This document shows, piece after piece, positions 54,184-59,280 of a DNA stretch of 64,000 bases (position 1 is its first letter; each line of letters starts with the position of its first letter). The notes beneath the pieces were generated by a model that worked only from the letters and a program-made list of their open reading frames with translations, ran no database searches and had not been told where the DNA came from. The stretch lies in contig NZ_BFCB01000002.1 of the NCBI RefSeq assembly GCF_003569045.1, positions 1,097,506 to 1,161,505 of the forward strand, given 5' to 3'. Source of the DNA: Aggregatilinea lenta (GTDB taxonomy: Bacteria; Chloroflexota; Anaerolineae; Aggregatilineales; Aggregatilineaceae). A program made the position numbers and the translations under genes.

Positions 54184-55809
54184 ATGCCTTCAGCCAAGCG
54201 CTCCCTCCCGCTCCTGCTGGTCGTTGCCGTATTGCTCGGCGGCTTCGCGCTGCGCGTGCACAACGCGGACGCGGTGCCGGTCTTCGTGGACGAGTACAAC
54301 CACATCCGGCGCGCGCAGGCCGCCTATGATTTTTCGTATAACCCCATGGAAATTAGCCACGGCAAGCTGCTGTTTTATTACTGGATCGGGCTGTTCGATC
54401 CGCAGGGAGAAGGTACGCTGCTGGTGTCGCGCTGGGCGGATGCCCTGGCCTCGCTGCTGACCTGCGCGGCGGCGGGCGGCGCGGCCAAACTGCTCTTTGG
54501 ACGGCGCGCGCTGGTGCCCGCGATGGCCTTCTACGCGCTGGTGCCGTTCGCGGTATTCTTCGACCGCACCGCCCTGGCCGACCCACTGGCGGGCGCACTG
54601 GCGTCGCTGGCAGCGTGGAGCAGCCTGATCGTTGTGCGCCGCCCGACCGTACGCCGAGGGCTGGCGGCGGGCCTGCTGATTACGCTGGCCGTGCTGGCCA
54701 AGCTGACCACGGCTGGCGTCCTGGCGCTGCCGGTTGCCGGTGCGATCGTGCTGGGTGACGTCGCGTGGCCGCGCCGGGATTGGACCAGCGTCCGCGCCTG
54801 GATCGGGGCGTTGTGGCGGCGCTACCGGCGCGCGTGGATCGCGGTGGGCGGCGTGTTTACGCTGGCAGCGGCAGTGGTGCTTGCGCTCACCCTGGAGAGC
54901 GCGATCAACGGCGAAAACACCTATCTGCTCGATACGCATCTCGTCCAGCAGGAACCGGGCACGAACAGCCTGCTGGTCGAAAAGTGGGGCGACATCCGCG
55001 ACCGGGGCGAAACCCTGATCTCCGCACCGCTGTCGCTGGTAATGATCGTGCTGCTGGTCGTGCTGCTGTGGCGCAAGCCGCGCCCGGCGATCTACGCGCT
55101 GGCATGGCTGCTGGCGATCTGGATTCCTAATCTGGCGCTGGCGGATGACGTGCAGTCGCGCTACCTCATGGCGGGTGTCGGCGCGCTGGCGGCGCTGTTC
55201 GGCGGGGAGATGGTCGCCGGGGGCGCACTGCTGGGCGACTGGATCGCGCGGGGCCGCGACGAGCTTGCGCGCGCCAGGTGGCGGCACTGGGCCACGGCAG
55301 GTCTGGCAAGCGTGATCCTGGTCGTGTGGGCGGTAGGCTTCGCGCTGCCGTTCGACGTGAAAGCCTCGACCGATCCGGCGTCGCTCAAGCTGCCCTGGCG
55401 GGATTCGCACGACTACTTCAATTATATCTACAACGCGTGGGGCATCCGCGAGACGATGGCCTGGGCCGACGATCACGGCGAGCGCGTGGGGGATCAGCTT
55501 CCCGTTGTGGCGGTGCTCAACCACTGCGGCCCGGTGAACCTGTACGTCGAGGAGAATATGGCGTTCCGCTGTCAGGATCGCTGGGCATTCCCCGGATCGC
55601 GCATGCCGTCGAACGTCGAGCGCTGGACTACGCTGATCAACGCGGCGAAGCAGTGGCCGTTCGTGTACGTCGTCAGCGAGTATCCGGCCATCGTGCCGCC
55701 AGACGATCCGCCCACGAACGGATCGTTGAATTGGGACCTGCAAACCACGTTCGACCGGCCCCAGGGCGGCCTGACCATCGCGCTGTGGCGGGTCACCATG
55801 AAGCACTAG
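54184..55809 (+). CDS. GT39-like membrane glycosyltransferase
   Basis: A 541-residue protein with about ten membrane helices. The first outside loop contains FVDEYNHIRRAQAAY (DE pair at about 38-39), the expected catalytic site of GT39/GT83 enzymes, and SHGKLLFYYWIG follows. The last 150 residues are soluble and Trp/Tyr-rich, with LNHCGPVNLYVEENMAFRCQ. The ATG at 54184 has only a weak GAGAT before it. A longer open frame from 53536 merely runs through the SH3 gene in another frame and is not used. Confidence 0.82.
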   Translation: MPSAKRSLPLLLVVAVLLGGFALRVHNADAVPVFVDEYNHIRRAQAAYDFSYNPMEISHGKLLFYYWIGLFDPQGEGTLLVSRWADALASLLTCAAAGGAAKLLFGRRALVPAMAFYALVPFAVFFDRTALADPLAGALASLAAWSSLIVVRRPTVRRGLAAGLLITLAVLAKLTTAGVLALPVAGAIVLGDVAWPRRDWTSVRAWIGALWRRYRRAWIAVGGVFTLAAAVVLALTLESAINGENTYLLDTHLVQQEPGTNSLLVEKWGDIRDRGETLISAPLSLVMIVLLVVLLWRKPRPAIYALAWLLAIWIPNLALADDVQSRYLMAGVGALAALFGGEMVAGGALLGDWIARGRDELARARWRHWATAGLASVILVVWAVGFALPFDVKASTDPASLKLPWRDSHDYFNYIYNAWGIRETMAWADDHGERVGDQLPVVAVLNHCGPVNLYVEENMAFRCQDRWAFPGSRMPSNVERWTTLINAAKQWPFVYVVSEYPAIVPPDDPPTNGSLNWDLQTTFDRPQGGLTIALWRVTMKH

Positions 55810-55842
55810 GGGCAAAACGGGCGGGACAGATCGCCGGGCAGA

Positions 55843-55887
55843 CCTCACCCCCGACCCCTCGCCAATCAAGTTGGAGAGAGGAGATAA
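55843..55887 (+). repeat. R1 palindromic repeat
   Basis: Forward copy (CCTCACCCCCGACCCC, arms CGCCAATC and GTTGGAGAG). Confidence 0.8.
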
Positions 55888-55906
55888 GCCCAATTGCACG
55901 CGATCC

Positions 55907-55936
55907 GTAAGGGCGGGGCTTGCTCCGCCCGTTTTT
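55907..55936 (+). terminator. R2-type repeat with terminator shape
   Basis: GTAAGGGCGGGGC, then TTGCTCCGCCCG and TTTTT. It is nearly identical to 20425-20455 and lies 100 bases after the GT39 stop. Confidence 0.65.
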
Positions 55937-55977
55937 GGCATACCGCGTATCAACGCAGGGGCGTATAGCACGTCCAC

Positions 55978-56001
55978 GGGCGATGCAAGCATCGTCCCTA
56001 C
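55978..56001. repeat. R2/R3-related hairpin
   Basis: GGGCGATGC and GCATCGTCCCTAC arms, the same core found inside the R3 copy at 48546-48698. Confidence 0.7.
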
Positions 56002-56029
56002 GAAAAACCGGGCATCGATCCTCTGTCTG

Positions 56030-56728
56030 CTAAATCACGTAATCCGGCAGTTGCTCGATGCGCTCGGCGGCACTGTGGCCGTTGCCGTTCGCCTGCGCGG
56101 CCTTCTCCACGTCGTCCAGGCGCGCCAGGATGCGATCGAGCCGCTCGGAAATGATATCCGGCAAAATATTGTGATCCAGGTCTGGGCGATGCGCTTCCGG
56201 CTCTGCGCCGCTGCGATGCACCGGCCTGCCGGGAATGCCCACCACGACCATATCCGGTTCCACGTCTTTGACGACCACTGCGTTCGCTCCAATGCGTGTA
56301 TTACGCCCAATGGTGATCGCGCCCAACACCTTCGCCCCGGCGCCGATCACAACCCCATCCTCGATGGTAGGGTGACGCTTGCCGTGATGCAGGCTCACAC
56401 CGCCCAGCGTCACCCCGTGATAAATCGTCACGTTCGCGCCGACCTCAGCCGTCTCGCCAATCACGACGCCCATGCCGTGATCGATGAACAGGCGCGGGCC
56501 GATGCGCGCGCCGGGGTGAATTTCGATCCCCGTCAGCCAGCGCGTGAACTGCGAGAGCCAGCGTGCAGGCAGATACAAATGCGCGTTCCACAGCCGGTGC
56601 GAAACCCGGTAGGCCCACAACGCGTGCAGCCCGGAATAGCTCGTAAGCACCTCAAGCCGGTTGCGCGCCGCCGGATCGCGCTCCAGTACACACTGGACAT
56701 CGTCACGAATCGACGCCAAGATCGACAT
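56030..56728 (-). CDS. cysE: Serine O-acetyltransferase
   Basis: A 232-residue CysE that makes O-acetylserine from serine and acetyl-CoA. The left-handed beta-helix hexapeptides are clear ([60 protein letters not shown]), with the catalytic HG and the KRHPTIEDG loop. The tail past about residue 180 is long and polar ([17 protein letters not shown]) and may dock to CysK. It follows cysK by 51 bases on the same strand. It would be controlled by the cysK leader. Confidence 0.94.
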
Positions 56729-56779
56729 GATCGTTCACCTCATTCCCATTTCCAGCCGGTCGGCAGCGCCTCCGGCGCG

Positions 56780-57712
56780 TTAAACATCCAGATCTTCGTA
56801 CAGCACGGTCGACAGATAGCGCTCGCCGAAGGACGGGATAATCACCACGATGAGCTTGCCCGCGTTTTCGGGGCGGCTGCCCACCTGAATCGCGGCCCAC
56901 GTCGCCGCGCCCGACGAGATACCGACCAGCAGCCCTTCTTCGGTCGCCATGCGGCGCGCGGTCTGAATCGCGTCCTCGCCGCTGACCGTCACCACCTCGT
57001 CGTAAACGTGCGTGTTGAGCACGTTCGGCACGAAACCCGCGCCGATGCCCTGAATGGGGTGCGGCCCCTTCTGCCCGCCGGACAGGATCGGCGACGCGGC
57101 AGGCTCCACCGCGACGATCTTCACCGACGGCTTGCGCTCCTTGAGCACCTCGCCCACGCCCGTGATCGTGCCGCCCGTGCCGATGCCCGCCACCACCAGA
57201 TCGACGCTGCCGTCCGTATCGCGCCAGATTTCTTCGGCGGTGGTGCGGCGGTGGACTTCGGGATTGGCGGGATTCTGGAACTGCTGGGGGATAAAGACGT
57301 TGGGATCGGCGGCGGCGAGTTCTTCGGCTTTGGCGATGGCGGCGTTCATCCCGCCGGGGCCGGGCGTGAGGATGAGTTCTGCGCCGAAGGCCTTCAACAG
57401 CTTGCGCCGCTCCTTACTCATCGACTCGGGCATGGTCAGGATCAGGCGGTAGCCGCGCTGCGCCGCGACCATCGCCAGCGCGATCCCGGTGTTGCCGCTG
57501 GTCGGCTCGACGATGATCGTGTCCGGGCCGATCTTGCCGTCGCGCTCGGCGGCTTCGATCATGGCTACGCCGATCCGGTCCTTGACGCTGTTGGCGGGAT
57601 TATAAAATTCGAGCTTGGCGACGATCTGCGCTGGGATGTCACCCACGATCCGGTTCAGACGAACGAGCGGGGTATTACCAACCAGCTGCGTGACGTTGTC
57701 TGCGATTTTCAT
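56780..57712 (-). CDS. cysK: Cysteine synthase A (O-acetylserine sulfhydrylase)
   Basis: A 310-residue PLP enzyme that makes cysteine from O-acetylserine and sulfide. The PLP Lys44 lies in [11 protein letters not shown], the substrate loop TSGNTG is at 71-76, and the phosphate loop is [10 protein letters not shown]. Length and order match CysK. It is first in the cysK-cysE operon. A 270-base leader separates it from a strong promoter; that leader contains a short Cys-containing reading frame and a terminator, which suggests control by cysteine supply. Confidence 0.96.
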
Positions 57713-57781
57713 CGGTTACCCTTCTGCCTCTTCCGGCGAATATGGGGAGTCTGTCGCCCCAGATTGAACGCGAACGGAAAC

Positions 57782-57814
57782 AAAAACCGGCCACGCTTGA
57801 GTGCGCGACCGGTT
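57782..57814 (-). terminator. Intrinsic terminator inside the cysK leader
   Basis: On the minus strand AACCGGTCGCGC and GCGTGGCCGGTT pair fully (two G-U pairs) around ACTCAA, followed by TTTG; with the arm's last T the run is five. It lies 70 bases before the cysK ATG and after the promoter, so read-through must be controlled. Confidence 0.85.
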
Positions 57815-57844
57815 AGAAACACCATGAGTAGCCTTTAAGCAGGA

Positions 57845-57928
57845 TCAAGGCGTGACGGCACACCACAAGCGGTGCTTGAGCCCTCCGTTGAAGCCTGTAC
57901 ACGAGCAAACCTGCATCTGGGCCGACAC
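57845..57928 (-). CDS. Short leader peptide with three Cys, upstream of cysK
   Basis: A 27-codon reading frame in the cysK leader. It starts with GTG (AGAAGG 9 bases upstream) or with an ATG four codons in. Cys is encoded at positions 8, 10 and 23, the first two as Cys-Ser-Cys. It ends 31 bases before the terminator stem. Its CGCTTG (codons 20-21) can pair with CAAGCG in the terminator, which would block it. Predicted role: a ribosome stalls or slows at Cys codons when Cys-tRNA is low. Expression is not proven. Confidence 0.55.
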   Translation of the reverse strand: MSAQMQVCSCTGFNGGLKHRLWCAVTP

Positions 57929-57973
57929 GTCAAACTGCCTTCTAATACACGCCAATTAAATCGATCTGAGTCG

Positions 57974-58002
57974 ATTATATGCCCGCGCCGCTCATTTGGC
58001 AA
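57974..58002 (-). promoter_or_regulatory. Sigma-70 promoter of the cysK-cysE operon
   Basis: On the minus strand TTGCCA (58002-57997) and TATAAT (57979-57974) have a 17-base spacer. The transcript would begin near 57967, giving a leader of about 255 bases. The rest of the 57713-58134 gap holds the leader and the upstream region of the PD40 gene. Confidence 0.82.
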
Positions 58003-58134
58003 CAGGTTGTTTAGATCTAAACCTTATCTTGACGCAAAACGCCCCTGACACGACGATTACCCCGCGCGATCCCCGCCCCGGCCCGCTGCGGCGCTATACT
58101 GAAACCACGTACCCCATCCCACAGGAGCGCGCGC

Positions 58135-59280
58135 ATGAATGTCTGGATCGCCCGGCACCGGCTCGTCCTCGGTCTCACCCTGGCCCTGTTTGCGATCGTC
58201 CTCGCGGTTCTCGCGGCGATCCTGCTGCGACAGTCCACCCCGGACCGGCCCGCGCCCGCCGGAAGCCTCCTGGTCGCCGCCGCCGAGGGGGACAACGTCA
58301 CGACCGTGCTGGCGCGGTTCGACGCGGCGTCCGGCGTGCTGACCCCGCTGGACATGCCCGGTGATCTCCCCCGCGACGCGCTGAGCAACGTTTCGCCCGA
58401 CGGCGCGCACTACTGGACCATCGAAACGCACTGGCACGAAGAACTGAACGCCAACCAGATGCAGGTGTGGGTCGCCGCGAGCGATGGCAGCGACACGCGC
58501 CCGCTGACGGACGACGGGCATTTCGGCACGCCGGTCTGGTCGCCGGATGGGGAGCGGCTGGTCTTCACGCACAGCGTCAACTATCACTCGGCGCTGTTCG
58601 TGGCGGAGGTCGAGACGGGCGCGTTGGCGCAGCTCACTGACTACCAGAACGACATCGAGCCGAGTTGGTCGCCGGACGGATCGCGCATCCTGTTCACCAC
58701 CTCGCGCGACGGCTTCCAGGAACTCTATACGATGGCCCCCGACGGCTCCGATCTGCGGCGGCTCACCGACAACGAGCAGATCAACGACTTCGCGGCGCGC
58801 TGGTCCCCGGACGGCGAGTGGATCGCGTTCCAGCAGAACTATGCCGTGGGCGACGGGTCGTCGGAGGTGTGGATCATGCGCCCCGATGGATCCGGCAAGC
58901 GCCAGATCACCGACAACGACAAAGACGATCACTCGCTGGTCTGGTCACCGGACAGCCGCTCGATCGCGTTCGTGCGCACCACGGTCACGATCCTCTCGGA
59001 GACGCAGGTCGAGCGCACCACCGACATTTACGTGTACGACCTCAAGCGCGACCGCGTGCGCCGCCTGACCGATCACCCCGACTACGACGGCAGCCCGGTC
59101 TGGTCGCCGGACAGCATGTGGATCGCGTTCCGCTCGCACCGCGACACGCCGGAGCGCATGTACCTCATCCGCGCCGACGGCTCCGGCCTGCGCCAGCTGG
59201 ACACCGCGAACCCCGACGCGCCGCACATCACCGCGATCTACCGCTGGGAAGCGCCGTCCCCGACCGCCCCAGATCTGTAA
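58135..59280 (+). CDS. Membrane-anchored PD40/TolB-like beta-propeller protein
   Basis: A 381-residue protein with an N-terminal signal anchor (about 8-32, LVLGLTLALFAIVLAVLAAI) and a propeller of repeated PD40 units: WSPDGERLVFTHS, WSPDGSRILFTTSRD, WSPDGEWIAFQQN, WSPDSRSIAFVRT, WSPDSMWIAFRSH. Such propellers bind proteins or polymers. No peptidase domain is attached. TATACT at 58095 may be its -10. It is divergent from the cysK operon. Confidence 0.85.
   Translation: MNVWIARHRLVLGLTLALFAIVLAVLAAILLRQSTPDRPAPAGSLLVAAAEGDNVTTVLARFDAASGVLTPLDMPGDLPRDALSNVSPDGAHYWTIETHWHEELNANQMQVWVAASDGSDTRPLTDDGHFGTPVWSPDGERLVFTHSVNYHSALFVAEVETGALAQLTDYQNDIEPSWSPDGSRILFTTSRDGFQELYTMAPDGSDLRRLTDNEQINDFAARWSPDGEWIAFQQNYAVGDGSSEVWIMRPDGSGKRQITDNDKDDHSLVWSPDSRSIAFVRTTVTILSETQVERTTDIYVYDLKRDRVRRLTDHPDYDGSPVWSPDSMWIAFRSHRDTPERMYLIRADGSGLRQLDTANPDAPHITAIYRWEAPSPTAPDL

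Follow-up and report, generated by a model that had tools for sequence, protein, structure and literature searches.

Cysteine-codon leaders and the cysK-cysE locus

The enterobacterial trp, his and leu attenuators comprise a leader peptide, regulatory codons and alternative 1:2, 2:3 and 3:4 pairing. The cysK-cysE leader described here, located in 64 kb of Aggregatilinea lenta DNA (hereafter the window, i.e., the whole stretch that was analyzed), resembles them in these parts, while the amino acid, genes and phylum differ and no sequence relation is claimed. An attenuator with Cys codons and an intrinsic terminator has been predicted before cysS in Rhodobacterales, namely the uORFC-8-2 motif (PMC8632094), in which an AUG frame with two conserved Cys codons, in tandem at positions 14-15, precedes the cysteinyl-tRNA synthetase gene of alphaproteobacteria. 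Like uORFC-8-2 (PMC8632094), the present leader combines a short frame carrying conserved Cys codons with a subsequent intrinsic terminator, and ribosome-mediated attenuation by Cys-tRNA supply is proposed for both. Unlike it, the leader precedes cysK-cysE in Chloroflexota, its Cys codons have one codon between them in a CxC(xC) cluster, and it has no matching Rfam family. Leader frames with Cys codons also precede cys operons of actinobacteria, with no conserved terminator hairpin and, in mycobacteria, with Cys runs near the stop codon (PMC1262725); the mycobacterial frames are described as cysteine-responsive in the passages of PMC9094748 and PMC13236596 that cite Canestrari et al. 2020. The window's leader shares with the actinobacterial polycysteine frames (PMC1262725) the presence of Cys codons before sulfur genes, whereas the early Cys cluster and covarying intrinsic terminator set it apart from the mycobacterial leaders (PMC1262725).

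The original prediction had mentioned Cys-rich upstream frames in actinobacteria, which the literature bears out (PMC1262725), and knew of no attenuator described for a Chloroflexota-like cysK. The latter stands insofar as a literature search, with most subscription journals outside its reach, returned no report of an attenuator for cysK or in Chloroflexota; it is narrowed by the Cys-codon attenuator already predicted for cysS in Rhodobacterales (PMC8632094). The mechanism is classical and this kind of attenuator has been predicted before; what appears new is its occurrence before cysK and in Chloroflexota.

We consider it highly likely that the cysK-cysE leader is a trp-type ribosome-mediated transcription attenuator keyed to cysteine. 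If so, amino-acid attenuation extends to Chloroflexota, and cysteine synthesis would be placed under a complete terminator/antiterminator switch; in the cys leaders of actinobacteria, no terminator is conserved. For a phylum that has received little study, this also offers a specific account of sulfur control that can be put to the test. The window's genome, although it encodes cysK and cysE, yielded no match to the sulfite/nitrite reductase domain PF01077 and seems to lack assimilatory sulfite reduction by enzymes of this family. The bacterium may therefore rely on ready-made sulfide for its cysteine, in which case strict regulation of cysK-cysE would be plausible.

Composition of the leader

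The features of the locus are collected in Table 1. Transcription is inferred to start near 57967, giving a leader of about 255 nt up to the cysK ATG. The promoter, leader length, 27-codon frame with Cys at positions 8, 10 and 23 and intrinsic terminator of the original prediction were all recovered, the frame with a GTG start and the terminator as a hairpin of 12 pairs. A TTGGCA..TATAAT version of the promoter lies upstream of the short frame in family members, and a cysE-like frame follows cysK in L030-L032 as well.

Table 1. Coordinates of the cysK-cysE leader and its genes in the window.
Feature	Position	Strand	Remarks
Promoter TTGCCA-17-TATAAT	58002-57974	minus	11/12 consensus matches
Probable ribosome-binding site AGAAGG of short frame	57943-57938	minus	
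Segment 1	57940-57909	minus	Spans frame start; partner is segment 2 (57873-57837)
Leader peptide frame	57928-57845	minus	GTG start, 27 codons plus stop, VSAQMQVCSCTGFNGGLKHRLWCAVTP; counterparts in relatives
Cys codons of short frame	57907-57905 (Cys8), 57901-57899 (Cys10), 57862-57860 (Cys23)	minus	
Proposed regulatory Cys codons 8 and 10 (TGC TCG TGT)	57907-57899	minus	Cluster kept in relatives
Segment 2	57875-57837	minus	3' of Cys codons; 57875-57856 used in 2:3, 57873-57837 in 1:2
Segment 3 (antiterminator use)	57811-57790	minus	5' arm and loop of terminator plus initial part of 3' arm
Intrinsic terminator (3:4)	57814-57785	minus	Followed by TTTGTTT at 57784-57778
cysK, cysteine synthase A	57712-56780	minus	TIGR01139 above NCBIfam cut-off
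cysE, serine O-acetyltransferase	56728-56030	minus	Second gene of presumed operon; TIGR01172 above NCBIfam cut-off

The terminator stem (8 G-C and two G-U among its pairs) carries a 6-nt loop and the tail TTTGTTT. It scores higher than all of 1000 dinucleotide-shuffled versions of the leader and is among only six sites with a score of at least 26 on both strands of the 64 kb. As in trp-type leaders, this intrinsic terminator lies between the leader frame and the first structural gene, and codons for the product amino acid appear clustered in a short frame between promoter and terminator. No Rfam family matches the window at its gathering score, including T-box and known riboswitch leaders; across 15 related loci, Rfam yields a single match, to a SAM-I/IV aptamer that lies outside the cysK leader of L039.

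The minus strand carries no gene from promoter to terminator, and the closest gene upstream is divergently oriented; the leader transcript is hence the only one that the hairpin can end. It indeed closes a promoter-proximal unit of around 190 nt, as would be expected if the unit encoded a functional small Cys-rich protein (CxC motifs could bind metal) or a small RNA, with the hairpin as its ordinary terminator and a separate promoter for cysK. This explanation has very little likelihood: a search of 55800-58300 gave no further promoter-like site, the peptide outside the Cys cluster is unconserved in the order, and the 1:2 and 2:3 complementarity described below would be left unexplained.

Conservation of the short frame

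A short frame with clustered Cys codons followed by a terminator precedes cysK in 31 of the 36 leaders examined in the window's order, i.e., in 12/12 leaders of its family and 19/24 others; its absence from relatives had been named as what would count against the prediction. The shared plan runs from promoter to clustered-Cys short frame, terminator and cysK, with 26-46 nt between stop codon and terminator throughout. These numbers refer to the leaders that were fetched, mostly from metagenome bins, and related genomes are not independent. Frames with at least three Cys within five codons occur in 11/12 family leaders and 17/24 other leaders of the order, where shuffles lead to an expectation of 0.6 and 0.4, respectively; examples of the encoded peptides are MNRTRICSCTCLATIKAQRLGCGAMG, MKMYAAYPTCCCPCCDIITESSCGVIRRR and MFRSFAACCCCPSPSGLTLMV. 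Outside the phylum, none of 47 cysK leaders has both frame and terminator (one has a terminator). A covariance model of the family, run against 154 genomes of the order, gives three weak matches outside the family, all directly before cysK. Further copies were found in the window's genome neither with the family RNA model, nor with a Cys-plus-core pattern, nor in the leaders of its two sulfurtransferase genes. The arrangement is absent from five of the 36 leaders. One of these, L047 (G139:C629), has no leader and a thioredoxin-like frame just 5' of cysK, for which reason it is possibly a contaminating contig.

Where the frame in most relatives begins with ATG and has three Cys codons in its cluster, that of the window begins with GTG and has two; the usual third Cys codon is GGC (Gly) here. 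Two Cys within five codons of some short frame arise in about 40% of shuffled leaders. Judged from the window alone, its two-Cys frame could have arisen by chance; what lifts it above chance is its conservation in relatives. Likewise, the window alone would not prove an attenuator, and it is the comparison with relatives that, at the level of sequence, settles this reading. Cys23 is replaced by Arg in L006, L007 and L010 and lies beyond an earlier stop codon in L011, where the frame ends before Trp-Cys and the pairing segment is nonetheless retained. Cys23 is, by this comparison, apparently dispensable and not part of the sensor, the kept feature being the early CxC(xC) cluster. In four leaders of one genus (L035, L036, L037 and L038), only 6-8 nt separate the -10 box from the ATG of the leader frame, a spacing suggestive of leaderless translation like that of the polycysteine frames of mycobacteria.

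Conservation of the terminator

A DNA similarity search with the whole leader returned matches confined to the terminator region of two relatives, and conservation was therefore tested by structure. In the family comparison, 4 of the 12 terminator pairs show compensatory changes on both sides, and terminator cells are paired in 95% compared to 22-38% when slid. This bears on the idea that the Cys codons act via translation, with stalling altering cysK initiation or Rho access, and that the terminator is incidental. Mycobacterial cys operons, preceded by Cys-rich leader frames without conserved terminator (PMC1262725), offer a precedent for such action, but the terminator here is conserved, covarying and similarly spaced from the frame, and its 5' arm keeps its pairing with the frame, leaving control via translation very improbable.

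Alternative pairing of the leader segments

Each genome's segments were paired with their own partner and with that of every other genome, using duplex energies as a proxy for structure (one genome per genus, n = 17; 20000 permutations). For 2:3, own pairs average -26.3 kcal/mol compared to -22.5 +/- 0.9 when permuted; for 1:2, these values are -28.0 and -23.1 +/- 1.0, and in both cases 0/20000 permutations are as good. The control pairings (segment 1 with the 5' part of the terminator, and segment 2 with either the post-terminator stretch or the one lying 5' of segment 1) are flat. The signal persists without the window's family, with 4 (2:3) and 34 (1:2) of 20000. Within the family, the own-versus-cross signal remains for 1:2 (55/20000) and is absent for 2:3, because the core is nearly invariant there. 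Compensated pairs include CTCTTGTGG with CCACAAGAG in L033, for which the family counterpart is CGCTTGTG with CACAAGCG, and CACGCC with GGCGTG in L010 versus CACGCT with AGCGTG in L011. A mutually exclusive antiterminator (2:3) is thus supported by covariation across the order, and support is likewise obtained for a protector pairing (1:2) located 5' of the proposed regulatory codons. The stems that were to be sought in relatives were hence both recovered: the terminator covaries, and 2:3 pairing is kept despite sequence change.

In the window, CGCTTG (57871-57866) is, as had been noted, complementary to both CAAGC (57878-57874) and CAAGCG (57799-57794). Of the two exclusive folds proposed on this basis, the antiterminator and the existence of a competing fold stand; the competitor is mainly the long 1:2 helix between the frame start and the post-Cys segment rather than the local hairpin. 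The 5-bp CAAGC/GCTTG hairpin was rejected as main alternative fold, as it is not kept throughout the family (e.g., L003, L005, L012).

The window's own 2:3 pairing ranks only 10th of 17 candidate partners. Together with the frequency of Cys pairs in shuffled leaders, this would fit a short frame that happens to contain two Cys and to lie beside a terminator. Such a coincidence is contradicted by the comparison (31/36 leaders of the order share the plan, 0/47 outside the phylum do, and the permutation tests add to this) and has next to no likelihood.

Ribosome position and proposed mechanism

Equilibrium folding of the complete leader is ordinary (z -0.88), and in this model the finished terminator always wins. 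The switch must therefore be kinetic, and shortened transcripts were modeled instead: a 28-nt ribosome footprint was moved along 27 leaders, and the antiterminator was scored before the 3' arm emerges. Averaged over these leaders, the antiterminator is at 0.36 when a ribosome occupies the first Cys codon, compared to 0.07 for the free leader and 0.03 when the ribosome is at the stop codon. With the A-site near the Cys cluster, out to about +7 codons counted from the first Cys, the value is around 0.3; from +9 codons onwards it is below 0.08. According to these models, the geometry is that of classical attenuation: a stall at the sensor codons would expose segment 2, while a ribosome finishing the frame would cover it. 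For the window leader alone, the antiterminator is 0.17-0.19 at Cys8 or Cys10, 0.09 when free and 0.05 at the stop codon; its own modeled energetics are weak and the predicted switch is small. Cys23 falls within the blocking zone of the model. The proposal that a ribosome at Cys codons chooses between the folds can therefore be kept for Cys8 and Cys10, based on the position-dependent folding, and is to be dropped for Cys23, which is neither conserved nor outside the blocking zone.

The same RNA switch could also be operated by nascent-peptide arrest, in which the leader peptide, responding in the exit tunnel to cysteine or to a precursor, would stall the ribosome near the C-terminus of the peptide. 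A C-terminal stretch resembling RLWCGAMG does recur in many family members, but it overlies the pairing segment, is removed by the stop codon in L011 and altered in L006, L007 and L010, and does not occur elsewhere in the order, whose peptides (e.g., MFRSFAACCCCPSPSGLTLMV) have only the Cys cluster in common. In the folding model, moreover, a late stall would cover segment 2 and favor termination, and we regard arrest by the peptide as very improbable.

We therefore retain attenuation by stalling at the Cys codons. This reading builds on the observed parts, their conservation, the maintained 1:2 and 2:3 complementarity, the covariation of the terminator and the position dependence in the folding models; from these, we infer translation of the frame, stalling, read-through and a response to cysteine. 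Transcription would begin near 57967 and a ribosome would start the 27-codon frame. Under a shortage of Cys-tRNA, this ribosome would wait at Cys8/Cys10 and cover segment 1, leaving segment 2 free to pair with the emerging segment 3; no terminator would form and cysK-cysE would be transcribed. When Cys-tRNA is plentiful, the ribosome would reach the stop codon and cover segment 2, upon which 3:4 would form and transcription would end before cysK. In the absence of translation, 1:2 would form and termination would again be favored; since segment 1 includes the start codon of the frame, an untranslated leader should terminate too. Taken together, the leader very probably switches cysK-cysE on when cysteine is short.

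Other cysteine leaders in the class

Other orders of the class have a second type of leader, whose mini-peptides (e.g., MYTCMCLRRGS and MFTCSCLRRGS) are encoded within around 280 nt upstream of cysK. The mini-peptide M..CxCx(R/G)RG is present approximately 130-245 nt before cysK in L060, L064, L065, L067, L068, L069, L080, L088, L093 and L108, and its GGCGGGG segment has possible partners just after the stop codon or further downstream. A DNA pattern for this type matches in 16 of 298 genomes, compared to one match for a reversed-pattern control. In 12/16, the leader is followed by cysK, by cysM or by a gene for a rhodanese-type sulfurtransferase or sulfite/nitrite reductase (unscanned loci were judged from their frames). 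CxC-RRG leaders stand before a sulfurtransferase in L240-L244 and L252, before a sulfite/nitrite reductase in L246-L248, and before cysM, followed by a JAMM protein, in L249. In L242, the post-Cys segment GCGGGGGCGTTAGCC can, by eye, pair over 15 bases with GGCTAACGCTCCCGC beside the terminator 5' arm. The distribution of CxC-RRG leaders across sulfur genes suggests a wider sulfur regulon under cysteine attenuators. We lean slightly towards Cys-codon attenuation being the standard sulfur control of the class Anaerolineae. Ribosome stalling would then govern a sulfur regulon through no fewer than two RNA architectures: the trp-like one before cysK-cysE, and the near-invariant CxCx(R/G)RG mini-peptide before cysK, cysM, sulfurtransferase and sulfite/nitrite-reductase genes. 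A third leader form is seen in L191, L195 and L207, where ten-residue peptides ending in CIC[LM] lie around 230-290 nt before cysK, with a distant GACTCATTGCAT-type terminator.
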